From IMG/VR virus record IMGVR_UViG_3300042344_000157, positions 1 to 35,111 of that record: a DNA stretch of 35,111 nucleotides; one strand, written 5' to 3'. This document shows, in pieces, positions 1 through 35,111 of the stretch. Position 1 is the stretch's first letter. The number at the start of each line of letters is the position of its first letter. The position numbers were made by a program, and so were the translations under genes. The notes under the pieces were generated by a model that ran no database searches, was not told the DNA's origin, and worked only from the letters and a program-made list of their open reading frames with translations. The DNA comes from a virus.

Positions 1-1255
1 GTCCCAGATATTCGCGGGCCTCATTCTGCGTAAGAATCCCATTCTTGACTCCTGCAACGACATAGTTCATTTGATCCAGCGGAGCGCCCTTCAGGAAGTC
101 TTGTGTCTGAAACTGAACGTGTAAATTCGGATAGCCTTTTAGCAGCGACAATTTTAACCGCTGCTCGACGTTCGTAATAAACGGCATCATCGTCGATTTG
201 TAGAACTCGTCCAGCATTGTCTGGGTGTTGTTGTACTTCGACTCGCCTACTCCGATCATCGCGGGAGGTACACCAAACAATCCGCAGATCCGCGTCATTG
301 TTTGCTTCTTAAGCTCTCTAGCATCCACATCCTGCAGCGTGAGAGGCTTGATCGCTTCGTAGGTCATGCCCTGATCCAACAACATAGACTGCCCCGGCTT
401 GCTCTGATCCGAGGGCTGGCTGTTAAGCATGTTGGTCCACGCTTCTTTTAACCTGCTGGCAATCTCTTTGAACTTTGAATCGGGAATGACTTGCTCGGTG
501 CGGAACAAACCGGAGGGTTTAGCACCGTTCAACATAATGAAGTTGGAGTAAAGGTCGATGTCCTGATCTAAGGAAACCAACTCGACAGCTTGCAAGCGGT
601 TAAACGAACTGGAGCCTTGCCACGGCTCAGACTTCGTGTGCATCACCTGAAAATACTTGAGCGGCTCATCTTTATTGAAGCCGTAACTTGAACTTGTAAG
701 CGTGTAGAAGGGATAACGCGTCTCTGAGATCCTCGGCACGATTAGCGTCGAGTCTAAGACGTACATCTCAAGCGGAATCTGCGTCGGTTCCTGTGCGTCT
801 TTCCTCCAGAGTAATACGAAAGTCTCACCGGCCAGCTCATGCCACATCGTGAACTGATACCAAAACTCGTATTGACTCTGGAAGTTATTAGGATTCGCAA
901 GAAGGTTAAGAACGCTTGCAGCTCGGCTCTTTTCGCGCTCAGGAACGCTAGGGTCTGTCTGTGTGTCTACAAACGTGCCGTCAGCCTGCTTAGACATGAT
1001 TTTGACGGGCAGTTGAGCAAGAGAACGTGCTTTTGCCCCTACGCAAGCCATCACAGTCGAATTTCTAGCAAGCGTCGTTATATCGACAGTTCGCCCTGCT
1101 TCGTTAACCGCAGAGGTCGTAACGTAGAGTAATTGGTTAGAACCGTAGCCCTGCCCCTTGCCACGGAGCATGACGTTGTTTCCGAGGACAGTATTTCCAA
1201 ATAAGGAGTTACTTTCGGCCTTTGTTTTACGCTTGAATACGTCGAATAAGCCCAT
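1..1255 (-). CDS. HK97-type portal protein (C-terminus beyond left edge)
   Basis: Portal protein, the dodecameric ring at the capsid vertex through which DNA enters and to which the terminase docks. The frame opens at ATG 1255 (MGLFDVFKRKTKAES) and stays open for 418 codons to the window edge without a stop. The visible protein has the order expected of HK97-family portals: a short basic N-terminus, an STVMACV segment near residue 70, a GVPPAMIGV motif about three quarters in, and a final GILTQNEAREYLG segment typical of the region before the variable C-terminal tail. Only the tail should be missing. It starts 8 bases after the large terminase stop, with a GAGGA-like ribosome site inside the end of that gene. 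Function is from family knowledge; the motifs are seen directly. Confidence 0.95.
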   Translation of the reverse strand, partial: MGLFDVFKRKTKAESNSLFGNTVLGNNVMLRGKGQGYGSNQLLYVTTSAVNEAGRTVDITTLARNSTVMACVGAKARSLAQLPVKIMSKQADGTFVDTQTDPSVPEREKSRAASVLNLLANPNNFQSQYEFWYQFTMWHELAGETFVLLWRKDAQEPTQIPLEMYVLDSTLIVPRISETRYPFYTLTSSSYGFNKDEPLKYFQVMHTKSEPWQGSSSFNRLQAVELVSLDQDIDLYSNFIMLNGAKPSGLFRTEQVIPDSKFKEIASRLKEAWTNMLNSQPSDQSKPGQSMLLDQGMTYEAIKPLTLQDVDARELKKQTMTRICGLFGVPPAMIGVGESKYNNTQTMLDEFYKSTMMPFITNVEQRLKLSLLKGYPNLHVQFQTQDFLKGAPLDQMNYVVAGVKNGILTQNEAREYLG

Positions 1256-1263
1256 TTTTATCC

Positions 1264-2922
1264 TCAAAAGACTCTGAATCCGTACGATTCAGACGGCATC
1301 GGATTGTCTAGACTACAGTGCATCGCAATGATTAAGGCAATAATCCCGTCAACCTTAGCGTGACGATCCACACCGGCTTTCTTGACTTTGATATTGCCTT
1401 GAACGTCTGTAAACACTTCGCAATTGCCCAGTTGATGTCCTAAGAATGGGTTTCCGTCGTGTCTGATCTTGTGGCCTAAGATAAGTCGCTCGACATGCTT
1501 AGACGGGTTAGAAAGCACCGCCATTCCTTGACCGACTTTCTTTACCGGCATTCCGACTTCGTACAGCCTTGCTACCAAAGCCGCAGCATTATATGCGTCG
1601 TAGCCTACTTCTTTTATGTCGTATTTCTGGCTTTGCGCGATAATATACGCCGAAATCTCTCTATCGTCCATCACGTTACCTTCGGTGATGTGCAAGATCC
1701 CCGAATTGATCGCCTGCCTGAAGATGTCTTGATAATGAGTGGGTAGTAATTCAAAGCCATCTTCGGGAAGAAAAAACTTCCACTCGGCTTCGTAATCGTC
1801 CTCGGCAAATCGTTTTAATGTGCAGACAGCGTTTAGATCTCGTGTCGCTGCTAGATCAAAACCGATAAATACTGCTTCGGGTTCTCTCTCTGTCAGCCCT
1901 ACGGATTCATCCCAATGTGTGCGGTCAACCCACGCGGTTTCGGCTGACACATAAACATTAAGTGTCTTACAGAGAAACTCGTTGAGCGCAGCGGGCTTAA
2001 TCTTTGCCTCTTCGCACCTCGCAACAATCGCATCGTGTGATACCGAGATATTGTGCATCGGGTTAGCTTTAGCCCATACCTTTTCGTCTCTCCAGTCATC
2101 ACCTGCATCCAGAGAGTAAAGAAGGCCAAACCACCGTGGGTTATCTGGAACGTCCTGATGGAGGATGTGCTCCATCACCTGAAAGTCCTCAAAGAACTTT
2201 GTGTCTCTTGTGAAGCTCGCAGTGGTTATGTAAAGACGGAGAGGATTAAGCCGAGATACCATCCCCGAATGCAAGACCTCAATCGCATTCCTGTCGACAA
2301 TTTGGCTCGCCTCGTCAATGATCGCGCAAGAAGGGTTGAGCCCGTCTCCAGTCTTTTTAGTGTCTCTGGAGAGAGCTTTCATCATGCTCTGGCTGTCGCC
2401 GTTCTTCACAATCGTGAACTTGCCGGGAATAAAGAGCCTCGAGATCTCCTGCGGCAACGTTTCGACGAAGCCCTTAGCCGTAGTAAACACGATTGAGGCT
2501 TGATCGCGGTTCGTAGCGAGCGTGTAGACCTCTGCGCCAGCTTCCCCGAAGGCTAGCTCGTAAAGGGCGATAAGAGCCGTCAGCGTCGATTTACCAGCCT
2601 TTCTGGGGATGTAGACAATGACATCCTGCACCATCCGTTTACGGCGGTCTTTCTTGTGTCTAAAGCCGTAGATCGCGCAGGCAATAAGGATCTGGAAAGG
2701 CTCAAGGCTTACAGGATAGCCAGCCCACTGTCCCTTTACATGCCTACATAGACCCGCAAACTGTAGAAAGTGATTGACAGGACTCGGATCAAAAACCCAT
2801 TCCCACTCTTTGTTTTCTATGTGATTTAAGAACCGCTGGCAGGCTAGGCGAACATTCCTACAAGCGTCGATCTCGCCTTTTACGATGCCGACAGCGTAAG
2901 CAATACCATCTTCTATTCTCAT
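1264..2922 (-). CDS. terL: Terminase large subunit (ATPase and nuclease)
   Basis: Packaging motor and headful/cos nuclease of the HK97-like Terminase_1 type, 552 residues, a normal length. The N-terminal ATPase shows a Walker A variant IPRKAGKS at about residues 105-112, a Walker B CAIIDE at about 199-204 and a coupling motif YITTAS at about 231-236. The C-terminal RNase H-like nuclease begins with FIGFDLAATRDL near residue 352, whose Asp is the first metal ligand, and a late acidic residue lies in the RHAKVDG segment near residue 529. The start codon overlaps the small-terminase stop as ATGA (2919-2922), so the two subunits are translationally coupled. Portal follows immediately, the standard TerS-TerL-portal order. 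Confidence 0.97.
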   Translation of the reverse strand: MRIEDGIAYAVGIVKGEIDACRNVRLACQRFLNHIENKEWEWVFDPSPVNHFLQFAGLCRHVKGQWAGYPVSLEPFQILIACAIYGFRHKKDRRKRMVQDVIVYIPRKAGKSTLTALIALYELAFGEAGAEVYTLATNRDQASIVFTTAKGFVETLPQEISRLFIPGKFTIVKNGDSQSMMKALSRDTKKTGDGLNPSCAIIDEASQIVDRNAIEVLHSGMVSRLNPLRLYITTASFTRDTKFFEDFQVMEHILHQDVPDNPRWFGLLYSLDAGDDWRDEKVWAKANPMHNISVSHDAIVARCEEAKIKPAALNEFLCKTLNVYVSAETAWVDRTHWDESVGLTEREPEAVFIGFDLAATRDLNAVCTLKRFAEDDYEAEWKFFLPEDGFELLPTHYQDIFRQAINSGILHITEGNVMDDREISAYIIAQSQKYDIKEVGYDAYNAAALVARLYEVGMPVKKVGQGMAVLSNPSKHVERLILGHKIRHDGNPFLGHQLGNCEVFTDVQGNIKVKKAGVDRHAKVDGIIALIIAMHCSLDNPMPSESYGFRVF

Positions 2923-3392
2923 GTGCCGAACTTAGGCCCTGCTAGGAATTCGCCCATCTTAGAGCCATCCTCAAGTTTGTTTGCCGCCAATCGAGACCGC
3001 GGAGTCAGTCCCATTTCGTTCATTAGCTTGATGGAGTTCTCCATCGCCTTGTTTGCAAGGCTGATGTAAGGATTCGGAGCGTGAGTTTTTCCACCGTTAG
3101 TCTTAACCACTAAAGGATGCTTTGCCTGCTCTTTCCTTGCGTCAATGTAGAGCTGGAGCTGGTCGGCAAGCATCATCAGCGTGTGCCTGTCCTGATCCGA
3201 GCCAATGCCGTAGACATCGAACAGATAGTCGGCGGTCTCTTTTACAAATCTCTCGCGGTTAAATAAAGACGGGTTGTCTGCCCACTCGGCAAACGGAACT
3301 CTGATCTTTACCTTCTCCGGCAGTGGGATGCCCGTGTTTTCTCCCTTTGTGCCGTGTACTAAGTGAACTTCAGGTGGATACTTTCTTTGCAT
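2919..3392 (-). CDS. terS: Terminase small subunit, P27-like
   Basis: Likely small terminase, which recognises phage DNA and loads the large subunit. The call rests on position (directly before TerL with an ATGA overlap), length (157 residues) and a P27-family-like C-terminal half: a helical ADYLFDVYGIG region, a long helix ending DARKEQ, then ANKAMENSIKLMNEMGLTPRSR, where P27 proteins usually carry a GLTPSSR-like motif. The N-terminal 40 residues (EKVKIRVPFAEW) are not diagnostic. The ATG at 3392 has an AGGAAG ribosome site inside the end of the upstream ABC-GNAT gene, and the two reading frames overlap by 23 bases. Confidence 0.85.
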   Translation of the reverse strand: MQRKYPPEVHLVHGTKGENTGIPLPEKVKIRVPFAEWADNPSLFNRERFVKETADYLFDVYGIGSDQDRHTLMMLADQLQLYIDARKEQAKHPLVVKTNGGKTHAPNPYISLANKAMENSIKLMNEMGLTPRSRLAANKLEDGSKMGEFLAGPKFGT

Positions 3393-4473
3393 TTTGACTT
3401 CCTATGTATTCAAAAGATGCGGTAAGTCTAGACGCGCTAACATTTGATGAAGAATGAACTTTCGCATTTGCGCCCGGAGCCGGAGCTCTGGAAGGCTGCC
3501 GAGTCATTCTCCATTTTGCGGACTTTGCTCGATAATGCACCATTGATGGGTGACTTGTCACGCTAGTAAAACGCTTTCCTTGCGACAATAAGAAATCACC
3601 TACAAGTTCACTTATTCTATTGCCTAGGCCTATCCCTTGAAAATCAGGCAATACAACGGTTCTGTGCTCCTTCCATATATTTTTAACTTTTGGATGCGGG
3701 AAAGGCAAGATTGAACACATGCCTGCGGGTTCGCCATCTATTGTGGCGACATAAACTTTTGCCGCTTTGTTTAGTTCAGCACTTAAATAGTGATGACCCT
3801 TAAATATTCTCCATACGGAATGATGGACTTGTTGTATCTTGATTTCAATGGAGGGTCGCCGAAGTAACCTCCGGTCAAAACACATTGTCGATACATCGTA
3901 AACCCAATCCGGCTCTAACCATTCCGCAACATCATAATGGCAAGTCACCGCGACAAATTGTCTTTTTTGCTTGCGGATAAACTTTTGAACTGCATAACTG
4001 CCAATCTTTGCGACAGTTCTATCTACCAAAGAAGTAAATTCATCAAACACTAAAATATTTTTAGTTTCCAATACTGCCCTTGCAAGATCGGCTCTAAATT
4101 TCTGACCATTGCTTAAACAGTGATATGGCAAAAGCCAGCTAGGTGGGCTTGCAAACCCAACATGAGACAAAGCATCAGTGATTGTTTTTATGTCTAATGA
4201 TTGATCAAAATCATCAAGCAAACTATTTTCTTTCCACTCATTATTGACAAAGTACGTTGCATCCTTAAATACTTGCTTTGCAATAGTGGTTTTGCCGGAG
4301 CCGGACGCTCCAACGATAAGACCAACTGACCAATTGAGATCTTCAATCGGCAAATCAATATGCCATTGCTTGCTAATATTTTCTTCTATAGGAACATCAA
4401 ACATTCCAACAACTTTGGCGGTCCGAAATGTTTGCTTATATTTTGTTGATACTACATAGTCAAAACTCGGCAT
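3370..4473 (-). CDS. ABC-type ATPase fused to Mom-like GNAT acyltransferase domain
   Basis: A soluble 367-residue fusion matching the domain description of COG2401 (ABC ATPase fused to a predicted acetyltransferase). The ATPase half has Walker A GASGSGKT at residues 55-62, an ABC signature variant LSNGQ at 120-124, Walker B ILVFDEF at 140-146 and a switch His in TCHYD at 177-181. No membrane segments are visible, so it is not a transporter. The GNAT half begins near residue 215, has an HHYLS motif at 227-231 and an acyl-CoA loop in LPDFQGIGLGN at 275-285, and ends in SFEYIG near 353-358, so it looks complete. As I recall, phage Mu Mom, a GNAT-fold DNA adenine modifier, also has a key His-Tyr pair at its N-terminus; equivalence here is inference. 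The gene is visibly richer in A+T than the terminase genes and overlaps both neighbours by about 22 bases. Alternatives: an RNA or protein acyltransferase, or a genome-maintenance ATPase. Confidence 0.85.
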   Translation of the reverse strand: MPSFDYVVSTKYKQTFRTAKVVGMFDVPIEENISKQWHIDLPIEDLNWSVGLIVGASGSGKTTIAKQVFKDATYFVNNEWKENSLLDDFDQSLDIKTITDALSHVGFASPPSWLLPYHCLSNGQKFRADLARAVLETKNILVFDEFTSLVDRTVAKIGSYAVQKFIRKQKRQFVAVTCHYDVAEWLEPDWVYDVSTMCFDRRLLRRPSIEIKIQQVHHSVWRIFKGHHYLSAELNKAAKVYVATIDGEPAGMCSILPFPHPKVKNIWKEHRTVVLPDFQGIGLGNRISELVGDFLLSQGKRFTSVTSHPSMVHYRAKSAKWRMTRQPSRAPAPGANAKVHSSSNVSASRLTASFEYIGSQNAKKVST

Positions 4474-4997
4474 TTGTATCCTTTTTCTGTAAGCATATAA
4501 AATAATTCTTCTTGCTGTAATTCGCTTTCACAGCTTACGGCTATTTCGTAAACTGAATCAACTTCTTGACTTGAGGCGTTTTCTTCTTTTGTCTCAGGCT
4601 TTTCGTCTCCAAAGCCAATTAGTTGCAAATCAAATCCCTCAAGCTCCAACTCCTCAAGCTCCAGACTGAGAAGCTCCGTATCCCATCCGGCATTCAAGGC
4701 TAGCTTGTTGTCAGCAATGATGAGAGCCTTCTTCTGAATCTCGGTTAGGTGCGACAGTTCTATGGTTGGCACTTCCTCAAGACCTAACCGCATCGCAGCC
4801 TTCAGCCTGCCGTGGCCAGCAATGATTCCTTTCTCGCCGTCGATCAGGATCGGGTTAGTCCAACCAAACTCTTTTATCGACGCAGCGATCTGCGCAACTT
4901 GCTCGTCTGAGTGCGTTCGGGAATTCCTTGCGTAAGGGGTGAGATCCCCTACGCGAGTCATGACGATGCGGAAAAGGTCCGGTTTTAAGCTACCCAT
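4452..4997 (-). CDS. ParB/Srx-fold domain protein with short alpha-beta tail
   Basis: 181 residues. Residues 10-100 form a ParB N-terminal-like domain: PYARNSRTHSDEQVAQIAASI, then ILIDGEKGIIAGHGRLKAA at about 50-68. The GHGR box corresponds to the ParB nucleotide-binding GxxR motif, followed by LIIADNKLA. An acidic Leu/Glu-rich linker follows, then a final segment EIAVSCESELQQEEL...KGYKCRVLTM at 150-181. In many phages such a domain is joined to, or precedes, a DNA methyltransferase. Here there is no methyltransferase, and the next gene, overlapping by 22 bases, is the ABC-GNAT fusion. The tight overlap suggests the two work together, perhaps with the ParB domain giving DNA contact. That role is inference; the domain call is firm. 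Confidence 0.87.
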   Translation of the reverse strand: MGSLKPDLFRIVMTRVGDLTPYARNSRTHSDEQVAQIAASIKEFGWTNPILIDGEKGIIAGHGRLKAAMRLGLEEVPTIELSHLTEIQKKALIIADNKLALNAGWDTELLSLELEELELEGFDLQLIGFGDEKPETKEENASSQEVDSVYEIAVSCESELQQEELFYMLTEKGYKCRVLTM

Positions 4998-10892: not shown

Positions 10893-11168
10893 ATGACAAC
10901 AGCACACGAAGAACTTGAAGTACGTCGCCAAGTGGCAATGGATGTAATGGTTATTACAAAGTGCAAACTTCAGCGCAACGTCAGATATGTTCGCAGCCAG
11001 AGCAACTGGATGAAAATCACTAGGGATAAAAATTCGTTTTGTTTTGCGAGAGGGTATGCAGGACAGCCTAAAGCCAAGGACATTGATACTTTTTCTTTTA
11101 CTTGGGTAGCCAACTGGAATGAAGCAATAGAAAAAGCAAAAAGCACACTAGCTTGGATTGAAATTTAA
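10893..11168 (+). CDS. Hypothetical protein, first gene of the rightward operon
   Basis: 91 residues, unrecognised. It has a good GGAG ribosome site. Charged N-terminal helix (HEELEVRRQVAMDVM), then strands with aromatic residues (NFYVR-like NVRYVRSQSNWMKI, FSFTWVANWNEAIEKAKST). The WNEAIEKA helix following strands suggests a small alpha-beta fold. No catalytic or DNA-binding motif. A hairpin with UUCG loop follows its stop. As first gene from the divergent region it may be a host-takeover or anti-defence protein, but nothing in the sequence shows this. Confidence 0.72.
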   Translation: MTTAHEELEVRRQVAMDVMVITKCKLQRNVRYVRSQSNWMKITRDKNSFCFARGYAGQPKAKDIDTFSFTWVANWNEAIEKAKSTLAWIEI

Positions 11169-11173
11169 TCACC

Positions 11174-11190
11174 GGGGCTTCGGCCCCTTT
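11174..11190 (+). terminator. UUCG-loop hairpin, weak terminator
   Basis: GGGGC-TTCG-GCCCC followed by only three T, located six bases after the stop at 11168 and before the recombination genes. A very stable tetraloop stem with a short U-tract suggests partial termination or mRNA 3' end stabilisation, reducing downstream expression relative to the first gene. Confidence 0.6.
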
Positions 11191-11203
11191 ACAGGAAATA
11201 ATC

Positions 11204-11281
11204 ATGAGGAAAATAGAATGGCTGGCCTACATAGCATTGGGGATGTTTTACGGAGTTCTAATGTTTCTGTTCGTGAGGTGA
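11204..11281 (+). CDS. Candidate 25-residue single-pass membrane peptide
   Basis: ATG 11204 opens MRKIEWLAYIALGMFYGVLMFLFVR and stops at 11281, two bases before the ERF start. AGGAAA precedes the start at suitable spacing. A basic tip followed by about 17 hydrophobic residues and a terminal Arg is a clear transmembrane helix pattern. Its stop region carries the GAGGTG ribosome site of the ERF gene, so it could be a coupled leader or a membrane micropeptide. Too short for statistical support. Confidence 0.42.
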   Translation: MRKIEWLAYIALGMFYGVLMFLFVR

Positions 11282-11283
11282 AA

Positions 11284-11880
11284 ATGAACGTCTACAACTT
11301 AATCGCAAAAGTATCGGCCGATCTTTGCCAGCATGGAATCTCTAAAGACCGCAAGAATGCTCAGCAGTCTTACAACTTTCGTGGCATTGATGACGTTTAC
11401 AACGCACTAGCTCCGATCATCAGCAAACACGGTCTGGTGATCCTGCCTCGGGTTATGCGCCGAGAAGTGTCTGAGCGCATGGGCAAAACCGGATCGTCAC
11501 TCTTTTATGTCGTGGTTGAGGCTGAGTTTGATTTTGTCTCTTCGCATGACGGAACCAAGCACACGGTTAAGACGTTTGGTGAAGCCATGGATTCAGGCGA
11601 TAAGGCTACTAACAAGGCTATGTCCGCTGCTTATAAATACGCAGCCTTCCAGACGTTCTGTATACCAACTGAAGGCGATAACGATGCCGACGCAACCACA
11701 CATGAAGCAGAAACTCCAGAGTTCACAGAAAAACTAATGCTAATCGCGGCAGCTAGCAAAGAGACCTTAAAAGATGTGTATGAGAAGTATTACAACGAAT
11801 ACAAGGATTATCCTAACCTTCAGAAACAGATCATCAAGGTTAAAGATCAACGTAAAAAAGATTTAGGGATCGGGCAATGA
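11284..11880 (+). CDS. erf: ERF-family single-strand annealing protein
   Basis: 198 residues. ERF-superfamily recombinases anneal complementary ssDNA after exonuclease resection. The diagnostic core is visible: NVYNLIAKVSADLCQHGISKDRKN, QQSYNFRGIDDVYNALAPIISKHGL, and GEAMDSGDKATNKAMSAAYKYA, where G-E-A-x-D-x-x-DKA-x-x-KA-x-x-AYK is the family signature, followed by F-x-IPTEGDND. Start ATG 11284 was chosen over the longer open frame because GAGGTG lies five bases upstream and the ERF core begins just after it. It is encoded with SSB and a YqaJ exonuclease, forming a complete exonuclease-annealase pair. Confidence 0.93.
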   Translation: MNVYNLIAKVSADLCQHGISKDRKNAQQSYNFRGIDDVYNALAPIISKHGLVILPRVMRREVSERMGKTGSSLFYVVVEAEFDFVSSHDGTKHTVKTFGEAMDSGDKATNKAMSAAYKYAAFQTFCIPTEGDNDADATTHEAETPEFTEKLMLIAAASKETLKDVYEKYYNEYKDYPNLQKQIIKVKDQRKKDLGIGQ

Positions 11881-12221
11881 ACACAGTAAAAGCGTTAGCT
11901 ATAGATAAAGCGTTAAGACTGCTTAACGCGTCTGGATGCAAATATTTTGTAATTGACGAATTAGGAAAAACATACGGAGAGCTTCCTGTTGAAAAAAAAT
12001 CAAAAAAACAATCAAGGTACAAACCGGGAGTTATGTCTAATTACTTCAAGCCTTTTTTGGTTAACGCAAAAATTGGTGACGTTGTTGTTATCCCTTTTAA
12101 CGATTTTGATCCAAGAGCGTTATCTGGTGCAATTACTGCTTATTTGTCAGGCACCTGGGGAAAACAATCTTATAAATCCTGCACCACAAATTCTTCTGTT
12201 GAAATATTGAGGTGCTCATGA
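11877..12221 (+). CDS. Hypothetical phage protein
   Basis: 114 residues, start ATG 11877 overlapping the ERF stop as ATGA. The first half is KALRLLNASGCKYFVIDELGKTYGEL followed by a Lys-rich turn and KPGVMSNYFKPFL; the second half is IGDVVVIPFNDFDPRALSGAITAYLSGTWGKQSYKS. The latter looks like a small fold found in several phage regulators or accessory proteins, but I cannot name it. The gene is more A+T-rich than its neighbours, with A-runs around 11990-12010. Confidence 0.7.
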   Translation: MNTVKALAIDKALRLLNASGCKYFVIDELGKTYGELPVEKKSKKQSRYKPGVMSNYFKPFLVNAKIGDVVVIPFNDFDPRALSGAITAYLSGTWGKQSYKSCTTNSSVEILRCS

Positions 12222-12541
12222 GAGACCCACATGCTGCGGTTGATTACATCCTAAAACACGCTGAAAAGTTTGCAGACGCTAGGGCTCAACGTGTGTATCT
12301 AGAAGAGTTCAGAAAGAGCAAGAAAGCCCTGCTAATGCAGCTAAACACCGCTCAGCCGATCTCTGCCCAAGAGCGTGATGCGTACGCTCACCCTGAGTAT
12401 TTGGAGCTTTTAGAGGGCTTAAAAATAGCCGTGGCGATTGAAGAAAAGTTACGATGGGATCTTGTTGCTGCCCAAGCTCGCGTAGAAATTTGGCGCTCAG
12501 AGCAAGCAAACGCTAGAGCAGAGATTAGGAACACCCAATGA
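12218..12541 (+). CDS. Hypothetical helical protein of the recombination operon
   Basis: 107 residues. ATG 12218 was chosen over an upstream in-frame GTG because GAGG lies five bases before it and it forms an ATGA overlap with the previous stop. Nearly all helix by composition: an N-terminal HAAVDYILKHAEKFADARAQRVYLEEFRKSKKALL and a C-terminal LRWDLVAAQARVEIWRSEQAN suggest a coiled coil. Similar short helical proteins often sit beside annealase or SSB genes in phages. Function unknown. Confidence 0.75.
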   Translation: MRDPHAAVDYILKHAEKFADARAQRVYLEEFRKSKKALLMQLNTAQPISAQERDAYAHPEYLELLEGLKIAVAIEEKLRWDLVAAQARVEIWRSEQANARAEIRNTQ

Positions 12542-12828
12542 CGTATAGAAACCAAAAACTGTTGGAAGCCGTACGCGAGTTTGAGTGTGCTTTATGCGGT
12601 GCTGAAGATGGGACGGTGGTAGCCGCGCACAGCAATCAACTTAGAGACGGGAAAGGGAAAGGGATAAAAGCAAGTGATGCAGCTATAGCAGCGCTTTGTT
12701 ATCGGTGTCACATGGCTATAGACCAAGGGCATCGCATGAACAAGCAAGAGAAAGAAGCTATGTGGGAGCAAGCCCACCGTAAAACAATGTTGTGGTTATT
12801 TGAAAGAGGAAAAGTATGGGTTCGGTAA
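12538..12828 (+). CDS. YbcO-like (DUF1364) nuclease
   Basis: 96 residues with the pattern of phage/prophage YbcO-type recombination nucleases: FECALCGAEDGTVVAAHSNQ, then GKGIKASDAAIAALCYRCHMAIDQG, with paired CxxC units, AH and the CH-x-x-ID ending. The Cys/His set suggests an HNH-related metal site. Related prophage proteins lie beside recombination genes, as here. Starts with an ATGA overlap and its end overlaps the SSB gene by 13 bases. Confidence 0.8.
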   Translation: MTYRNQKLLEAVREFECALCGAEDGTVVAAHSNQLRDGKGKGIKASDAAIAALCYRCHMAIDQGHRMNKQEKEAMWEQAHRKTMLWLFERGKVWVR

Positions 12829-13187
12829 ACAAAGCGATCATCATCGGTAACGCAGGAAAAGATCCAGAGATCAAATACACGGATGCAGGGGTTGCTGTTT
12901 GTACCTTGACGCTAGCAACCAAACATTCTTGGAAGCAGCAAGACGGTAGCCGCCAGGAAAAAACAGAATGGCATCGCATCGTTTTCTGGGGAAAGCTAGG
13001 AGAGATTGTCGACAAGTACGTTAAGAAGGGCTCCCAGGTTTACGTCGAAGGTCGTATCGAAACACGAAAGTGGACAGACAAAAACGGTAACGATAAGTAC
13101 ACCACCGAGATCGTTGCTGACCAGATGCAAATGCTAAGCGGCAGACCTAAAGCAGAAATAGATAACGATGAAGAGGTACCGTTCTGA
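12816..13187 (+). CDS. ssb: Single-stranded DNA-binding protein
   Basis: 123-residue OB-fold SSB. The start MGSVNKAIIIGNAGKDPEIKY, the core TLATKHSWK and TEWHRIVFWGKLGEIVDKYVKKGSQVYVEGRIETRKW are unmistakable. The C-terminus ends DNDEEVPF, the acidic tip with terminal Pro-Phe that binds partner proteins in bacterial SSBs; the linker is very short (about 15 residues). ATG 12816 has AGAGGA upstream. It protects replication and recombination intermediates and probably interacts with the neighbouring annealase and exonuclease. Confidence 0.97.
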   Translation: MGSVNKAIIIGNAGKDPEIKYTDAGVAVCTLTLATKHSWKQQDGSRQEKTEWHRIVFWGKLGEIVDKYVKKGSQVYVEGRIETRKWTDKNGNDKYTTEIVADQMQMLSGRPKAEIDNDEEVPF

Positions 13188-13777
13188 TGGAGCAGGGAAC
13201 TGAGGAATGGAAACTCGCCCGTCTCGGTAAGGTCACGGCATCCAGGGTATCGGATGCTCGTGCCAAGACCGGAACCGCAGCGCGAGCTAATTACATAGCC
13301 GACATCATTACAGAGCGCCTTACAGGCTCACCAATTGAATCTTATACAAATGCTTACATGGAATGGGGGACTGCAAATGAACCGCTTGCAAGAGCCGCAT
13401 ACGAGATTAAAACGGGTATATGGGTGGAGCAGGTCGCCATCGTCAATCATCCGCACATTAAGTCGTTTGCAGCGTCTCCTGATGGTCTGGTCTGGACGGA
13501 TGGTTTACTCGAAATCAAATGTCCGAAAACCTCCACGCATTTAGGCTGGATGATGAAGGGCGAACCGCCTTCCGAGCACAAACACCAGATGCTTGCTCAG
13601 CTTGCCTGTACCGGTAGAGAGTGGGTTGATTTTGTATCGTTTGACCCACGGTTGCCCGAGCATCTTCAATTATTTGTGGTTAGGTTTCAACCGGAGCCTA
13701 AAGACATTGAAGACCTAGAGAAAGACGTAATGACTTTTTTACAGGAAGTTGACACAATGCAAAGGAAATTAGGATGA
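13187..13777 (+). CDS. YqaJ/lambda-exo family exonuclease
   Basis: 196 residues of the PD-(D/E)xK YqaJ viral recombinase family. Recognisable parts are the N-terminal QGTEEWKLARLGKVTASR, MEWGTANEPLARAAYE carrying the GxxxE motif, AASPDGLV with the catalytic Asp at about residue 103, and LLEIKCPKT with the E-x-K pair at about 110-112, then HKHQMLAQLACTGREW. It resects double-strand ends 5' to 3' to make substrate for the ERF protein. Stop and start with SSB share one base; it overlaps the next gene as ATGA. Confidence 0.95.
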   Translation: MEQGTEEWKLARLGKVTASRVSDARAKTGTAARANYIADIITERLTGSPIESYTNAYMEWGTANEPLARAAYEIKTGIWVEQVAIVNHPHIKSFAASPDGLVWTDGLLEIKCPKTSTHLGWMMKGEPPSEHKHQMLAQLACTGREWVDFVSFDPRLPEHLQLFVVRFQPEPKDIEDLEKDVMTFLQEVDTMQRKLG

Positions 13778-15338: not shown

Positions 15339-15568
15339 TTATCTTGCTTATGGTCTAGCTTGTCAAAGATCTTAGACAACATGACTTTGATGTCGGCGAT
15401 GTCTTTTTCATAGTCTGGCTTTAGAACGTAGGCGTGAGGCAAACCTTTTTCTAAGTCTCTAAGGTCGCGCTGCAATTCTTTCTGAGCTTCCCAAACCACA
15501 CGGAAGAACCAGCCGAATGCGGCAGATAGAACGCCAAAAGCGATGTTAAGCAGCGTCTGAGAGTCCAT
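15335..15568 (-). CDS. Small membrane-anchored protein of the lysis cassette
   Basis: 77 residues from ATG 15568; an in-frame ATG at 15601 is an alternative with no ribosome site. N-terminal hydrophobic helix (SQTLLNIAFGVLSAAFGWFF), then a charged helix (RDLRDLEKGLPHAYVLKPDY) ending KIFDKLDHKQDK. The pattern of one membrane pass plus cytoplasmic or periplasmic coiled coil matches many phage lysis-accessory proteins. Its start lies within the end of the glycosyltransferase gene. Confidence 0.64.
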   Translation of the reverse strand: MDSQTLLNIAFGVLSAAFGWFFRVVWEAQKELQRDLRDLEKGLPHAYVLKPDYEKDIADIKVMLSKIFDKLDHKQDK

Positions 15569-16610
15569 AGTAGTGAAGGTTCCTAACGAGTCGTTCGTCA
15601 TCTGGCGATAGATCTACCGCCGCCGCACCGTGTTTTATCGCTTCGTCTTTTAAGCCCAGATGATGAGCTGCAACTGCCGCAAGATCGTGAGGCTTAGAAC
15701 CCCAGACTTCAGGGTCGCATGTATAAACAAGCTGCCGATCCTTGATCTCTAGAGCCATTGTAGCCGCGTGGAAGCATTCTTTCCACATAGACTTCATGTA
15801 AAAGGACATCGCCGCGTCTACCCACGGCTCACGCGTTCCAGGAGCCTCGGCTATCGCCATCCTGTACCACTTTAAAGCCTCCCAAGGGTTCTGTTTATGG
15901 TCATAGGCTTTACCTAACAACCGCATGGCATAGCACCGCTCATTCGGCCATGTCGCCTCTGGCATGTCAAGATAGGTGTTGAGTGCGGTTATAGCCTCAT
16001 CCCAGAGGTGATAGAACGTAAGTTCACGGGCAAAGTAAAAAGCATTGCGCGGTTCGCGTGGATTTTCCTTAACAGACATGCGTAATAAATCAAGATACTG
16101 GCCTCGGCTTTTAGTTGGGTCCGGGTAGTGACTTACTAATAGCTTGTCAGTTTCAGCGTATACCTCTGTAATGCGAAGATCAGGGATTGGGTATTCATGG
16201 ACAGGGCAAAAAAATGAATAACCGTGACGAGCAAAGATTTTTTCGTATCTAAAACGAATGCCTTGCCCCCAGTCAAACAAGTAACGCAGACGTGTTGTCT
16301 TGCCTAATTCCCATACCCTTTCAATTTCTTCGCGCCATCCCTCTTCTAACACTTCATCCAGGTCTAAGCTGACAATAATGTCAAAGTCTTTGGGCGTGAG
16401 AGCAATGGCAACATTTCTCGCCGCGTCAAAACGCCAGGGAGATATGCAAATATCGTAAACCGTAGCCCCACATTCTTTGGCTAACTCAACCGTTTTATCA
16501 GTGCTTCCCGTATCGGCAATTAAGATTAGATCAGCATCTTTAGCCGAATTACAGAACCTCTTAACAAACTGCTCTTCGTTCTTTGATATTGCGTTAACGC
16601 AGATTTTCAT
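15546..16610 (-). CDS. GT2-family glycosyltransferase with TPR-like repeats
   Basis: 354 residues from ATG 16610, chosen over a TTG at 16631 because GGAG lies eight bases upstream. The N-terminal GT-A domain starts CVNAISKNEEQFVKRF, has LILIADTGSTDKTVELAKE and a metal-binding DLDEVLEEGW (D-x-D at about residue 95). The C-terminal half has TPR-like helical repeats (EALKWYRMAIAEAPGTREPW, DEAIKHGAAAVDLSPDD). It should transfer sugar from a nucleotide donor to a phage protein, host envelope or nucleic acid; the acceptor is unknown. Its place between fibre and lysis genes suggests virion decoration or surface alteration of the host. Confidence 0.9.
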   Translation of the reverse strand: MKICVNAISKNEEQFVKRFCNSAKDADLILIADTGSTDKTVELAKECGATVYDICISPWRFDAARNVAIALTPKDFDIIVSLDLDEVLEEGWREEIERVWELGKTTRLRYLFDWGQGIRFRYEKIFARHGYSFFCPVHEYPIPDLRITEVYAETDKLLVSHYPDPTKSRGQYLDLLRMSVKENPREPRNAFYFARELTFYHLWDEAITALNTYLDMPEATWPNERCYAMRLLGKAYDHKQNPWEALKWYRMAIAEAPGTREPWVDAAMSFYMKSMWKECFHAATMALEIKDRQLVYTCDPEVWGSKPHDLAAVAAHHLGLKDEAIKHGAAAVDLSPDDERLVRNLHYYGLSDAA

Positions 16611-17106
16611 CCTGTCTTCTCCAGTCTCCAAAATATTTTATTTCCGCATTAATTCTAACTAATCGAGCATCTGCTAAATCAACATATCTACCCAAACATA
16701 TTTTTTTATTATCAACTTTTATATAAGCTCTCCATTTGAGCGTGTCTTTGCAAAAACAAACACCTTTGACCCCTGTCGTGTTTCTTACATTTGCTTTTAA
16801 ATTTTTACCATTTTGCAAGTTAGTTGCTTCTCTTAAATTGACTATACGATTGTCAGTCTTGATGCCGTTTATGTGATCTAACTGATCCGTTGGATGTTTG
16901 CCGTGATGCAAAGCCCAGGCAATTCTATGTGCGTAATGACGTTTGCCATCAATCATGATGCCTATGTAACCAGCCTTAACAACTGTGCCGGCGGCTTTTT
17001 TCTTAATACGACCTTTGCCTTCAGCGATCCAGTAAACATTTCCAGTTTCCGGTTCGTAGCGAAACAAGCGCTGAAGTGTTTCTATTGGTAGAATCTTTGC
17101 AGCCAT
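16594..17106 (-). CDS. HNH homing endonuclease with AP2-type DNA-binding domain
   Basis: 170 residues. The HNH part runs through YAHRIAWALHHGKHPTDQLDHINGIKTDNRIVNLREAT, with the catalytic DHING and downstream N residues. The C-terminal part, TTGVKGVCFCKDTLKWRAYI followed by a KICLGRY strand, is an AP2 domain, the usual partner that gives target specificity. The gene is clearly A+T-rich relative to its neighbours and has its own leader with a hairpin, so it looks like a mobile insertion between tail and glycosyltransferase genes. GAGGG eight bases upstream supports ATG 17106. It overlaps the next gene by 17 bases. Confidence 0.93.
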   Translation of the reverse strand: MAAKILPIETLQRLFRYEPETGNVYWIAEGKGRIKKKAAGTVVKAGYIGIMIDGKRHYAHRIAWALHHGKHPTDQLDHINGIKTDNRIVNLREATNLQNGKNLKANVRNTTGVKGVCFCKDTLKWRAYIKVDNKKICLGRYVDLADARLVRINAEIKYFGDWRRQDENLR

Positions 17107-17467: not shown

Positions 17468-19528
17468 TCACTGGACTGGGAAGGGTGCTGTGGGAACGGT
17501 TGTCACGGTTCTTGCGTAGCCTTTAGTAATACGAAAATCATCAACATAACCATTCCAATCACGACCTGCGTCTAATGCTGGTGTGTGGCCAACAAATAAC
17601 GGCCTAGCAGTATTGTTGAAATCGGTTGTCATAGTGGCTTGTGAGTCAAGCGATCCATTTATGTATAGCTTGAAATTATTTGTAGCTGAACCGCTTCTGA
17701 CAAAAGCTATGTAGTACCAAGTACCTGTGTTTAATGTTGCACTTGACGTTAAAACAAAACCACTTACAGCGAACCAACAAATTTTATTCCCAGTTGCATC
17801 CGCAAGTATTTGCCATGTGTTCTCACCGGCAGAAGCCCAATTACCACCAAGCGTCATATAAGCAGTGTTGGCAGATTTATAAACCCATGCTTCAACGGTA
17901 AAATCACCGCTTCCTAATGCCAGTAAAGCACTTCCAGGCATAGTTGCACGATCCCCATTCCCATCAAAGTAAATACTCCCACCACCCCACTTGCTCTGTG
18001 TTGTGCTGATCTGAGCATTCCCAACAGTCTCCAAGACATTCTTGGCAGTGGCATCGACAACGCCAGCATTGGTGAAGTTGAGGAGGAGGGATGTGTTGGG
18101 TACTGCCGTTAGTGGTGCTGTGGGACCGCCAGCGGGAGGAACAATGGCAGTGCCTTTGACTACACGAACATTTGAAATGTATCCGGCAGGGAATAGGTAC
18201 GTCGCATTCCCATCTGAGCTATATGCTCCAACCACAAAAGCGCTTGTGTTATTAGGAACTGTGCCAGATGAATTGCCTGTTCCGCCAGAAACGCCGTTTA
18301 CATAAATAGTCCATGTACTCCCGCTTCTCGTAAACGCCAAGTGAGTCCATGCGTTTAGTGTGGCTGCGATAGAACTTGAAAAGGCAATTCCCCAGCTTGA
18401 ACCGCTCAATGTTGCATAGAAATTAGGCGTAAGCCCACTAAAATATATTAAAACTCCACCGAACGTACCTACGTCAGTTCGTTTGGCAAAAATTCCGTCG
18501 GATGAGCTTGGTGTTTCGTTAAGATAAACCCAGCACTCCATTGTAAAGTCAGACGCTTCCATGTCTAACGCTGTGTTATCAGCCACACTCAAATAATCCC
18601 CCGTCCCATCAAAGTACCCGCTACCACCCACTGCGGCAGCACTGTAGGAGGACGTTGGTGCGAAGGGGGAGAAGGGTGTGACTGAGGTGTTTCCTGATGG
18701 CGTGACGGTTAGCGGTGTTGAACTACTGTCTTTGAAACGATTGGATTGGCAGGTAAGTAATGATGTATTAGAAATTGCGGTTAAGGGTAATGTTGGAACA
18801 TTAATTGTTGATTGAGTTGCATCGTAAGCTGATGATCCGTTAACAATTCGTGCATTTGATATATAACCCTGCAAATTCCGTGTAGCCTCGTTTGCATACC
18901 ACTGGCTACCAACAAATAAAACATTACCAGTAGACCCAACGGTTGCTGATGTTGACGTTGTAGCAACTCTACTTCCATTTAGAAATATTGATAAAGTTGA
19001 GCCGCTTCTACAAAGAGCAATATGCGCCCATTGATTAATTGGTGTAATTGTTGACGAAGTTATTGCTAAAGCAGTTGCGCTAGCAAAAGCCACTGCTGCA
19101 TACCCAGAAGGCGTTAATTCAAAACTAATATAAGACGTCCCTGCAGTGCTTCCAGACACACCATAACTAATAAGACCTTGACTTAAAGTATTAGTTTGTC
19201 TTAATAAGTATACCCAACACTCCATTGAAAAATCGTTAGATCCAACCGATGATATGGCTGATGTTGGTATTGATAAACAATCCCCCGTCCCATCAAAATA
19301 ATTTCCCCACCCCGTCTGTGAGAACGGGCTAAAGGTTCCCTGCGTTGTGTTGCCGTTGCGGGTGATGGTGAATCCTGAACCACTGTTAGCGGTTCCAGAG
19401 TCTAAGAACGTATTGTTCTGTGCGCCGTTAGTGCCGTTGCCTGGGAGGAGCAAGGACACAAGGTTGAAGTAAGCGTCTTTGACTGCGCCAGATACACCCG
19501 CAATAAGGGCGTTAAGAATGCCTGTCAT
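17468..19528 (-). CDS. Tail fibre/adhesin with three LamG-like lectin domains
   Basis: 686 residues. After an N-terminal anchor (GILNALIAGVSGAVKDAYFN, LVSLLLPGNGTNGAQNNTF) there are three tandem concanavalin A-like LamG_3 units, each starting with a YFDG(T/N)GD motif (about residues 77, 310 and 518) and followed by (F/V)(S/T)MECWVYL or VEAWVYK. These beta-sandwiches typically bind glycans, so the protein is probably a receptor-binding fibre or decoration adhesin on the tail. The repeats differ in sequence, consistent with old duplications. Conserved LLLPGNGTNGAQNNTF-type starts are common in environmental phage fibres. Confidence 0.87.
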   Translation of the reverse strand: MTGILNALIAGVSGAVKDAYFNLVSLLLPGNGTNGAQNNTFLDSGTANSGSGFTITRNGNTTQGTFSPFSQTGWGNYFDGTGDCLSIPTSAISSVGSNDFSMECWVYLLRQTNTLSQGLISYGVSGSTAGTSYISFELTPSGYAAVAFASATALAITSSTITPINQWAHIALCRSGSTLSIFLNGSRVATTSTSATVGSTGNVLFVGSQWYANEATRNLQGYISNARIVNGSSAYDATQSTINVPTLPLTAISNTSLLTCQSNRFKDSSSTPLTVTPSGNTSVTPFSPFAPTSSYSAAAVGGSGYFDGTGDYLSVADNTALDMEASDFTMECWVYLNETPSSSDGIFAKRTDVGTFGGVLIYFSGLTPNFYATLSGSSWGIAFSSSIAATLNAWTHLAFTRSGSTWTIYVNGVSGGTGNSSGTVPNNTSAFVVGAYSSDGNATYLFPAGYISNVRVVKGTAIVPPAGGPTAPLTAVPNTSLLLNFTNAGVVDATAKNVLETVGNAQISTTQSKWGGGSIYFDGNGDRATMPGSALLALGSGDFTVEAWVYKSANTAYMTLGGNWASAGENTWQILADATGNKICWFAVSGFVLTSSATLNTGTWYYIAFVRSGSATNNFKLYINGSLDSQATMTTDFNNTARPLFVGHTPALDAGRDWNGYVDDFRITKGYARTVTTVPTAPFPVQ

Positions 19529-31745: not shown

Positions 31746-32086
31746 CAGACTGCAACCGTTGGTTCGTTACGGTAACAAGTGAACGTTACCCACTGCCTAT
31801 CGTCATGCTCGTAAACCTCAGCGATCCGCCATGATTTATCGCGGAAGGAAATGCTGTAAGCCTCTTGAGCATCGGAAATCGTACGCATGTTGGGCGTGTA
31901 GTTCACCGTGAACTCAATCATGTTGTCGTATTGCCGAAACTTTTCAAGCGTCCGAATGCGGTTATGCACAGACTTGGTTTTTGCTCGCGTCTGAAACCAT
32001 GCAGTCTCTGTCGTTGTTTGCTCGCCAAGATTGGTAAGCCCAAACGTCAGATTGTTGATGGTGATTTGATCGACGCGTAAAACCAT
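31745..32086 (-). CDS. Head closure/head-tail adaptor protein
   Basis: 113 residues, beta-rich: ITINNLTFGLTNLGEQTTTE, FQTRAKTKSVHNRIRTLEKF, NMIEFTVNYTPNMRTISDAQ, ISFRDKSWRIAEVYEHD. It resembles the Phage_H_T_join class (small barrel plugging the connector after packaging) and lies exactly where it is expected, after the connector gene with a one-base TAATG overlap. Confidence 0.8.
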   Translation of the reverse strand: MVLRVDQITINNLTFGLTNLGEQTTTETAWFQTRAKTKSVHNRIRTLEKFRQYDNMIEFTVNYTPNMRTISDAQEAYSISFRDKSWRIAEVYEHDDRQWVTFTCYRNEPTVAV

Positions 32087-32730
32087 TACATCACCAAAGT
32101 CTTATAGGGTCGCAATAGCTGGTCAATCGCCCAGGGAAGCTGATACTGCTTAGCCTCAGAGATTGCAGACCGGTTATTGTAGAAATGCGTGAGCAACATC
32201 AGCCCCGCTTGCTTAACCACGGGATACTGACCGATAACACTGCCTTGTAGCGTGTACTGACAAAGCATCGGAGCGGTCATGTAAGTGTTAACGTTATTTG
32301 GAACCTCGAAAAGAACTAACTTGTTCCCCGTCGGGTCGTAGTAATACTGACTGTTTGCAATCGTCGTAAGAACTGGAGGGTTCAGGTCGTTGTAATACTT
32401 GACCCAATTGATCGTTACGCCGTTCTGCGAGACCTCGGGAAGATCCAGGGAAACCGGAGCTGCCATCAAACCCGAGATTAGATACGAAGCCTGATACGTT
32501 ACATTGAAGATTGGAACGCCCAAATAATCCTCAATTGCCATCCGCGCCGCTAGCTCAAGTTGCGTCAGATATTCGTCTTGCGACTCATCCTGAAACAAGT
32601 TGAGCTGGTTGGTGATTTCGTCGTAAGTAAGCCATTGCGTAACCGGGTCGCGGGTACTTTGAATGACCTTCGAGTAGTTGAACGGGTTTCTAGAACCCGC
32701 TCCGAAATTACCTTGAAGCTGACTTGGCAT
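32086..32730 (-). CDS. Head-tail connector (gp6-like adaptor)
   Basis: 214 residues. Helical core with LTQLELAARMAIEDYLGVPI, the (A/L)R-x-x-IE-x-(Y/L)-x-(G/N)-x-(P/I) pattern characteristic of gp6-like connectors, then beta strands (LPEVSQNGVTINWVKYY, NSQYYYDPTGNKLVLFE) and a C-terminal helix with LMLLTHFYNNRSAISEA. It forms the ring below the portal. First gene after the capsid paralogue, separated by one base from its stop. Confidence 0.87.
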   Translation of the reverse strand: MPSQLQGNFGAGSRNPFNYSKVIQSTRDPVTQWLTYDEITNQLNLFQDESQDEYLTQLELAARMAIEDYLGVPIFNVTYQASYLISGLMAAPVSLDLPEVSQNGVTINWVKYYNDLNPPVLTTIANSQYYYDPTGNKLVLFEVPNNVNTYMTAPMLCQYTLQGSVIGQYPVVKQAGLMLLTHFYNNRSAISEAKQYQLPWAIDQLLRPYKTLVM

Positions 32731-32731
32731 G

Positions 32732-33760
32732 TTAGGTTCCGATCAAACGAACACCAGCGGTTACATCGCGCACAGTCGATACCAAACGCTTTTCAGCGTA
32801 GATCGTGATTGTTCCAGGCTGCGTTTGTTCCATGCGTTGCAGCGTCATTTCTGAATGGTCAACGATCCACATAAACCGAGGCCAGTTGGCTAGGTAAATG
32901 GGAGAAGCGCCAGTTGCGGGAGCGTCTAAGTAGGGATTGACGATAACCGGCCAGCCCATAATGTTTACACCTGGGCCTTCGTCTTTTTCGCCAGTTTCAA
33001 CTAATGCGTAAGAGTTGCCGGCATGAGCGTATTCACGCAGCGTCTGTAATGCGGTTGGGTGCATCATCCATGCGGTCCCAGGCATTCTCCAAAACTGACC
33101 TGGAAGAGCGTTAGCAACATCAACAAGGCTTTCCCACTCAATACCGCCGCTATGCGTATAGCCGACAGTGTTAAGCGTGTGAATGCCGTTAGTTATGGCC
33201 GTTCCTGAGCTGCCATAAGCAGCCGTAGAACCAGCTGTCCCTGCGTACATCTTAAGGCCGCGCAGACCATTGGTCGCGCCTGTGCTTGTCGTGGTTGATC
33301 CTGCTTGGTCGTTATTGACAGCCATCGACGCGGCTTCGATCTGGCTGAATTCCATCGCAAGATCTTCGGCTAAAGCAGCATCTAATCCGTTGATGTCACT
33401 CATCGCCGCTGCACGAATCGGCATCTGAGCCGAAATGACGCGCATCGGAAGCTGCCAAATGCTCGTAGCGATATTGGGCGATCCGCTGTTAGCGTTGACC
33501 GTGTAGCCCCAGGGGTTCGTACTGTTGGCAGCGTTACCAGTCTTAACCACAAACTGAATATCCGAGTCTGCCGTCATTGTCTGATTTGCATAAACCCGAA
33601 AAGGGTTCCAGTAACGAAGGGATGCAAACACATCCTCGTTATAAACGCGACCACCAACCCCGCTGCCTGAGCCGGTTAGGGCCGAGGCTTCCGCGAGGTT
33701 GACAGTGCTGTTGCCCTCGTGGAGAGCCTTTTTCAAGCCTTCCAAAATAACCTGTTTCAT
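32732..33760 (-). CDS. Second HK97-fold major capsid protein paralogue
   Basis: 342 residues from ATG 33760, chosen because GGAGAG lies just upstream; the frame is open to 33802. The protein clearly aligns with the next capsid gene: EASALTGSG, FVVKTGNA, NPWGYTV, ATSIWQLP, AQMPIR, NNDQAG, NGLRGL, and a C-terminal PGTITIYAEKRLVSTVRDV. Compared with it, the N-terminal coiled-coil (delta/scaffold) segment is nearly absent; only about 30 residues precede EASALTGSG. Possible roles: vertex (penton) protein, a minor form mixed into the shell, or decoy. Both copies look intact, so both are probably used. Confidence 0.92.
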   Translation of the reverse strand: MKQVILEGLKKALHEGNSTVNLAEASALTGSGSGVGGRVYNEDVFASLRYWNPFRVYANQTMTADSDIQFVVKTGNAANSTNPWGYTVNANSGSPNIATSIWQLPMRVISAQMPIRAAAMSDINGLDAALAEDLAMEFSQIEAASMAVNNDQAGSTTTSTGATNGLRGLKMYAGTAGSTAAYGSSGTAITNGIHTLNTVGYTHSGGIEWESLVDVANALPGQFWRMPGTAWMMHPTALQTLREYAHAGNSYALVETGEKDEGPGVNIMGWPVIVNPYLDAPATGASPIYLANWPRFMWIVDHSEMTLQRMEQTQPGTITIYAEKRLVSTVRDVTAGVRLIGT

Positions 33761-33763
33761 AGT

Positions 33764-33794
33764 CTCTCCAAAAGGGAGAGGGCTTTCGCCCTCT
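33764..33794 (-). promoter_or_regulatory. Two mutually exclusive hairpins at the ribosome site of the second capsid gene
   Basis: On the minus strand AGAGGGC-GAAA-GCCCTCT (33777-33794) forms a seven-bp stem with a GAAA tetraloop. Its 3' arm overlaps CTCTCC, which can instead pair with the ribosome site GGAGAG (33764-33769) around a CTTTT loop. The two structures share bases 33777-33780, so only one can form at a time. This could tune the ratio of the two capsid proteins. It is also a weak terminator candidate (only four T). Confidence 0.6.
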
Positions 33795-33798
33795 TTTA

Positions 33799-35111
33799 TC
33801 AAGCAGCCGTACCAGTCGAACGATAACGAACGCCAGCGTTAGGATCGCGCACCGAAGTGGCTGCACGAGTCTCGCCATAGAATGTTATAGATCCCGGAAC
33901 TGTCTGGTCGTATCTCCTGAGAACCATTGAGAGACGCATGACGATGGTGTGGAACTGCTGCCAATCCGCAAAGTACATCGGATAGTAGGACGTAGTCCCT
34001 GCTGCGCCGGTGGTGGGCTGGCTAGGATTGTCGACATACTTGTTAACTGCAACCTTGAAGCCGAGCAATTCACCAACAATGCCATCGGTGCGTGACAGAC
34101 CGTCAACATAGATCGGACGGCCTTGCAGATCGACTAACCCGCGAATGCCTTGAAGCAGAATCGGGTTGATCATGAACGCTGCACTGGGAGTCCAATATTG
34201 CTGGGGCAGGCTATAAATAAAGTTCACTACATCTTTGTAGTTCACATTATTTGCCGCAACCGTGTTGGCGTTTGTCGTCAACTGGTCATAGGTAGCAAGC
34301 GAGTGCAGACCGTTGGTGGTTGCAGTTCCCGAAGTACCGAAAGCAGCTGTCGAGCAAGAGCCACCCGTGTAAGTTGCATTAGCGCCAGCGTACTGATCCA
34401 AACCGCGCAGACCATCAGCGCCACCCGTCGTTACCGAGGTTCCGGTTCCCGACTGATCGTTGTTCTGGATCATCGAGGTTGCCATAGCCTGCTGGAACTC
34501 CATCAACATATCGTCAACAACGTTAGCCTCTAAGCCGTCGATGTCATCAAGTGCTGCGGTACGGATGGGGAACTGAGCGTTCAAGTCTTTAAGGATCACC
34601 TGCCAAATGCTCGTGGCTTCAGTTGTGGGTGCGCCGTTGTTCTGAACGGTGTAGCCCCACTGAGCACCTGCATTGCCGGTCTTGACGCGGAACTGATAAG
34701 CCGAGCCGTCAGTTGCAACAATGCGCGACAGATCCATCAAGGGATTTCCGAGACGCTTTGCAGCGAACACGGGATCGTAAGCTGTACGGCCACCAACGTC
34801 GTAGCCTGAACCCGTAAGAGCCGAGGCTTCCTTGATGTACGCTTCGCACTGATCCACAGATTCAAAGATCTTGACTTCGCGCTCGATGTTGTTACCGGCC
34901 TTCATGTACTCCTTAAGAACGTCCTTGAAGCGACGATTTGCTTCGCCACGGACGGTCTTGTGAATAGGACGGATGATTGAAGGGGCGGCAACTTTTGCCT
35001 CTAATGCGGCAATCTTTGCTTCGGTTTCGGTTTTGAGCGCCTCGACAGCCTCAGCAACTTTTACTTCGACGGCCTGAGCGGTTTCTGCCAATTTGGCAGC
35101 GCTAGATGCTT
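33799..35111 (-). CDS. HK97-fold major capsid protein (N-terminus beyond right edge)
   Basis: The frame is open from its stop at 33799 to the window edge; an in-frame TTG at 35091 is not the start, because coding continues upstream (ASSAAKLAETAQ). The N-terminal visible part is a coiled coil (EAVEALKTETEAKIAALEAK), the delta/scaffold domain that is cleaved by the head protease in HK97. The shell domain runs from EASALTGSGYDVGGRTA through YQFRVKTGNAG, QWGYTVQNNG, FPIRTAALDDIDGLEANVVD to PGSITFYGETRAATSVRDPN. The protease gene expected just upstream is not in the window. Confidence 0.95.
   Translation of the reverse strand, partial: ASSAAKLAETAQAVEVKVAEAVEALKTETEAKIAALEAKVAAPSIIRPIHKTVRGEANRRFKDVLKEYMKAGNNIEREVKIFESVDQCEAYIKEASALTGSGYDVGGRTAYDPVFAAKRLGNPLMDLSRIVATDGSAYQFRVKTGNAGAQWGYTVQNNGAPTTEATSIWQVILKDLNAQFPIRTAALDDIDGLEANVVDDMLMEFQQAMATSMIQNNDQSGTGTSVTTGGADGLRGLDQYAGANATYTGGSCSTAAFGTSGTATTNGLHSLATYDQLTTNANTVAANNVNYKDVVNFIYSLPQQYWTPSAAFMINPILLQGIRGLVDLQGRPIYVDGLSRTDGIVGELLGFKVAVNKYVDNPSQPTTGAAGTTSYYPMYFADWQQFHTIVMRLSMVLRRYDQTVPGSITFYGETRAATSVRDPNAGVRYRSTGTAA

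Follow-up and report, generated by a model that had tools for sequence, protein, structure and literature searches.

An ancient pair of adjacent HK97-fold capsid genes in a family of small freshwater phages, with a probable division between hexamers and vertices

A widespread family of small freshwater phages carries two adjacent and strongly diverged HK97-fold capsid genes, here called MCP-A (A) and MCP-B (B). It is well supported that the pair goes back to a single ancient duplication and has always been kept. The best explanation of the pair, to which we assign a probability of about 0.6, is that A forms the hexamers and B the vertices of the shell, and that this arrangement evolved independently of T4 within the PF05065 family.

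The stretch of DNA analysed (the window), a linear virus record from IMG/VR, is 35,111 bases long and carries its structural genes on the minus strand (Table 1). The record appears to have been opened between the portal gene and MCP-A, since the former leaves the left edge and the latter is cut at the right edge. In relatives with intact neighbourhoods (locus L099 and phage P19250A), the order portal-protease-MCP-A-MCP-B spans the 1/35111 junction and an S78 prohead protease sits between portal and MCP-A; judged from these relatives, the end of the portal gene, the S78 protease and the start of MCP-A are absent from the window. The gene order is portal, S78 protease, A, hairpin, B and connectors, and the tail genes of pair-bearing genomes (about 36-39 kb) are siphophage-like. 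Several other genes of the window were also recorded. A protein of 367 aa (3370-4473, minus strand; PHROG_11143, E=1.7e-105) combines an ABC-type ATPase part with a GNAT acetyltransferase part, and its gene neighbours those of the terminase small subunit and of a ParB-like protein (4452-4997). In the tail-fibre/lysis region, one gene (15546-16631, minus strand) encodes a family 2 glycosyltransferase with TPR repeats and another (17468-19528, minus strand) a protein of 686 aa containing three Laminin-G/ConA-like lectin domains. An ERF single-strand annealing protein and a YqaJ nuclease form a recombination pair on the strand opposite the structural genes (11158-13774, plus strand).

Table 1. 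Head genes of the window and the region between the two capsid genes
Feature	Position	Strand	Description
MCP-A	33799..35111	-	HK97-fold major capsid protein; coiled-coil (delta/scaffold-like) propeptide at N-terminus; 5' end truncated by window edge
A/B intergenic region	33761..33798	-	GC-rich hairpin AGAGGGC-GAAA-GCCCTCT, then CCCTTTTGG, then MCP-B RBS GGAGAG
MCP-B	32732..33760	-	Second HK97-fold capsid protein; short N-terminal helix, no coiled coil; ATG at 33760
Head-tail adaptor Ad1	32086..32730	-	PHROG_40/442; first gene 3' of MCP-B
Portal protein	2..1267	-	PF04860, E=1.9e-56; gene runs past left window edge
Terminase large subunit	1264..2922	-	PF20441/PF03354

The two adjacent HK97-fold capsid genes named in the preliminary description were borne out as neighbouring reverse-strand open reading frames without internal stops, and all the motifs quoted there as shared are present in the alignment of A with B. 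The two proteins are 41% identical over 348 residues (BLASTP E=4e-74) and each independently matches PF05065 Phage_capsid (A, E=2.7e-23, 83.2 bits; B, E=2.1e-20, 73.7 bits; curated cut-off, 24.2 bits), so their resemblance reflects homology and not chance. PHROG_10 (major head protein) was also matched by both. The start of B is most likely the ATG given in Table 1, which yields 342 aa and has its GGAGAG ribosome-binding site ending 3 nt upstream; TTG at 33802 was considered and set aside. As encoded in the window, A has 436 aa and is short of ~13 N-terminal residues compared with relatives (449 aa at full length in L088). A profile search of solved sequences led to the capsid protein of the Rhodobacter capsulatus gene transfer agent (RcGTA) for both A and B, and a single-sequence search of solved structures gave no meaningful match for the capsid proteins. 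AlphaFold2 models built from 37-row alignments were of mediocre to moderate quality (pTM 0.64 for B and 0.62 for A) and, being single-chain, cannot separate pentamer from hexamer; compared by Foldseek, they matched the RcGTA, HK97 and D3 capsids with probability 1.00 (best E, 9e-12 for B and 5e-17 for A). By profile and fold, the RcGTA capsid (PDB 6tb9/6tba) is the nearest solved structure to both proteins and, unlike the split proposed for A and B, it is made of one protein that supplies pentamers and hexamers alike.

An N-terminal coiled coil had been described for the first copy only, and this holds for the window and for all lineages compared. B is devoid of this domain of roughly 75-80 residues and has a short ILxGIKxAL helix there in all lineages aligned. 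Ahead of the shared EASALTGSG segment, A has ~105 residues and B 20-45. On sequence grounds this segment is the likely mature N-terminus of both proteins; cleavage of the propeptide is putative, and the S78 protease is encoded upstream in L099 and P19250A. In one lineage (L254:2806-4138, plus strand), B bears an extra N-terminal domain of ~100 residues that matches PHROG_2859 (function unknown, E=2.6e-30), fused in frame and preceding the usual ILxGIKxAL helix. The N-arm, E-loop and C-terminal motifs are kept in both A and B, with a few additional residues in B at the E-loop tip (ATNPWGY-type). Three loops of A are absent from B (around A residues 255-263, 290-300 and 378-388). Identity between A and B is mostly ~0.4-0.6 over the rest of the core (~0.45-0.6 in most of the N-arm, the E-loop base and the C-terminal strands) and falls to a minimum of 0.21-0.25 at A residues 281-300, 321-360 and 381-400, where B is also without loops. 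We read this low-identity stretch as the putative A domain, an assignment that we take from the order of elements and a NPxxLxxIRxLxDxxGRPI-type motif as usual in the family.

A survey of copy number among relatives, as proposed in the preliminary description, found two copies in every complete neighbourhood. Viral contigs were searched from A and from B as independent seeds, and a joint A+B profile was run against viral contigs and genomes. At 276 loci besides the copy in the window, B comes directly after A and is similarly oriented; some of these loci are overlapping pieces of one contig, and the 203 distinct protein pairs are the better count. All one-copy loci (24/24) stop at a contig end within or beside the missing neighbour, and no true single-copy relative was found among the loci retrieved from viral contigs and genomes. 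A one-copy outgroup was sought in genome contigs and with the mixed A+B profile on viral contigs; since these scans gave only pairs or contig-end fragments, the duplication is not rootable with a one-copy relative. Among 50,697 phage records, the pair is present only in the Methylophilaceae (LD28) phage P19250A (KX815270), an isolate in which genes 0005 (A) and 0006 (B) are deposited as GTA capsid protein and hypothetical protein, respectively. Gene 0006 (L145:6066-7124) is actually a second HK97-fold capsid protein and its annotation can be corrected. P19250A shares with the window the gene pair, its order, its neighbours and an inter-gene hairpin (protein identity 61% for A and 54% for B), but belongs to another lineage of the same family and has the duplication unannotated. 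Marine phage Venkman has been reported as the closest isolate to P19250A (PMC8163748), and was not retrieved from the phage collection at the sensitivity used.

Between A and B, a GC-rich stem-loop followed by a T-run was found by a strict fixed rule in 54 of the 58 lineages, compared with 1.6 expected from shuffles; the same rule was satisfied in 1/57 cases after B, 0/54 before A and 0-1/58 inside genes. This conservation of the inter-gene hairpin is new here. The stems differ between lineages yet stay complementary, as in the clade of the window (AGAGGGC-GAAA-GCCCTCT-CCCTTTT, its stem also supported by fold computation), P19250A (GGGGAAG-GAAA-CTTCCCC-TCTCTTT) and L216 (AGGGATGGTGGC-AAAA-GTTGCCATCCCT-TTTTTTT). 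Four lineages that failed a similar rule still show a hairpin: L185 and L231 have fewer T, L285 has a 10-base loop, and L286 failed as the start of B was misassigned. In P19250A the hairpin ranks highest of the terminator-like sites within the first 18 kb, and that of the window's clade, with a short and weak U-tract, is not called by a standard terminator scan. The gap between A and B (~40-90 nt) is mostly hairpin and leaves scant space for B to have a separate promoter. With the hairpin in this position, A belongs to the high-output portion of the operon and B is grouped with the low-copy connectors. On the simplest reading, some transcripts end, or are cut back, downstream of A, giving more of A than of B and the connectors beyond it, and we infer that the hairpin lowers B relative to A; it could instead stabilise or process the mRNA. 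Terminators after the major capsid gene are also found in phages with a single MCP (T7), and the hairpin therefore fits a low level of B without proving a vertex role. In the window's clade, a second possible stem (CTCTCC/GGAGAG, 33761-33798, minus strand) over the MCP-B ribosome-binding site could hinder translation; it was dropped as a general mechanism as it is not kept in other clades.

In the division of labour that we favour, duplication of an HK97-fold capsid gene would have given two shell proteins that assemble together in different posts. MCP-A, bearing the long coiled-coil propeptide, would be produced in excess and form hexamers, and MCP-B, less abundant and translated from transcripts that read through (or survive) the hairpin downstream of MCP-A, would form the pentameric vertices. 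Given the order portal, protease, MCP-A, hairpin, MCP-B, connectors, A is the predicted bulk shell protein and B a minor one; both would be present in the virion, with B at the vertices. A T=7 shell, the number assumed here from genome size, comprises 360 hexamer and 55 penton subunits. Phages with ~36-39 kb genomes usually use one MCP, which counts against a dedicated penton. The precedent is T4, where gp24 fills 11 vertices and gp23 the hexamers, and where gp24-bypass mutations map to the A domain and let gp23 form pentons (PMC9958956). T4 gp23 and gp24, like A and B, are encoded by neighbouring intact HK97-fold paralogues downstream of the portal and prohead protease. The propeptides are also unequal in T4, with 65 N-terminal residues lost from gp23 and only 10 from the vertex protein gp24 (PMC9958956), and the putative propeptide of B is likewise shorter than that of A. 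The two systems differ in that the T4 proteins are ~17-20% identical to each other and have their own families, whereas A and B are 41% identical and both PF05065; that T4 has a separate scaffold core, whereas here a coiled coil is fused to A; and that T4 has a 170 kb genome and the pair-bearing phages small ones with siphophage-like tail genes. A and B match only PF05065 and PHROG_10/15928 and no T4 capsid family, and no T4 chain was among the solved sequences retrieved by either profile.

The preliminary description had offered hexamer versus pentamer subunits and a mixed shell as alternatives. The former is favoured over an equal mixed shell because the hairpin is conserved, because indels and the greatest divergence between A and B fall in the putative A domain, and because the propeptides are unequal in the manner of T4; it is from these features that we infer the assignment. 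A mixed shell, with A and B in the same capsomers in variable proportion and B relying on the scaffold domain of A, is nevertheless the next candidate, though an unlikely one. The two-component Family 2B encapsulin of Streptomyces lydicus, in which two adjacent HK97-fold shell genes give products that co-assemble, establishes that two different HK97-fold proteins can build irregularly tiled shells (PMC12407261), and a shared lattice would accord with the N-arm, E-loop and C-terminal motifs retained in both proteins and with the lack of a scaffold domain in B itself. That encapsulin is, unlike A and B, non-viral, its mixed shell bears cNMP-binding domains, and its components are ~70% identical to each other as against ~41% for A and B (PMC12407261); moreover, divergence and indels here cluster in the putative A domain, the site of intracapsomer contacts, and the hairpin speaks for B having a minor role. 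A and B as an actual encapsulin (a cellular shell for cargo, with Enc1/Enc2 beside cargo genes) were rejected, as both are part of a phage head operon that also encodes portal, terminase, protease and connectors.

It is less probable still that B occupies a special post other than the ordinary vertices, such as a portal-proximal ring, a size determinant or an initiation component. The position of its gene directly before the head-tail adaptor and its predicted low copy number would suit such a post, but B retains a complete HK97 fold including the E-loop and N-arm motifs needed for lattice contacts, and no phage precedent was found. That A and B, both complete capsid proteins, make separate capsids or sizes under differing conditions or hosts is very improbable, for they lie in one operon in the same order everywhere with little promoter space for B, and B has no scaffold domain and no scaffold gene lies between the two.

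The age and maintenance of the pair bear on whether the paralogues have different roles. In a tree of 76 proteins, A and B were reciprocally monophyletic (SH-aLRT 100, one label change); because they form separate clades, the duplication is older than the split of all sampled lineages. B diverges faster than A: between lineages, core identity has a median of 74% in A as against 59% in B, and A is the better conserved of the two in 98% of pairs. The median dN/dS among close pairs was 0.062 for both, indicating strong purifying selection, and the 137 loci examined for internal stops had none. The retention of intact, diverged paralogues for different roles, as suggested at the outset, is thus well supported by monophyly, retention and a dN/dS of ~0.06, and decay of the second gene in relatives, named beforehand as evidence to the contrary, was looked for and did not appear. 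That B is a recent or neutral duplicate heading for decay, as its faster evolution might hint, can hardly be maintained against an old duplication, no loss in the 276 loci, the lack of stops and the low dN/dS, and the survey already contradicts it.

No other duplicated HK97 capsid genes in phages were found in the open-access literature. JBD30, considered as a possible two-MCP phage, was excluded, as its second protein is a Soc-like decoration trimer and not an HK97 paralogue. As late as 2025, T4 was described as the only virus known in which two HK97-fold proteins have different roles (PMC12407261). For the fuller proposition, that a protein dedicated to pentons arose independently a second time among HK97-fold tailed phages, in a widespread lineage of small (~36-39 kb) freshwater phages where the conserved hairpin sets the hexamer:penton ratio, we consider the chances about even. 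The annotation of P19250A can be amended to include a second capsid protein that is currently listed as hypothetical. If the division of labour is true, the same solution as in T4 was reached independently in a small, widespread phage family with an isolate. Pairs that are still 41% identical, together with ~200 natural variants, would allow tests of penton versus hexamer determinants, and the A/B family would also let the control of subunit ratio by phages be tested.
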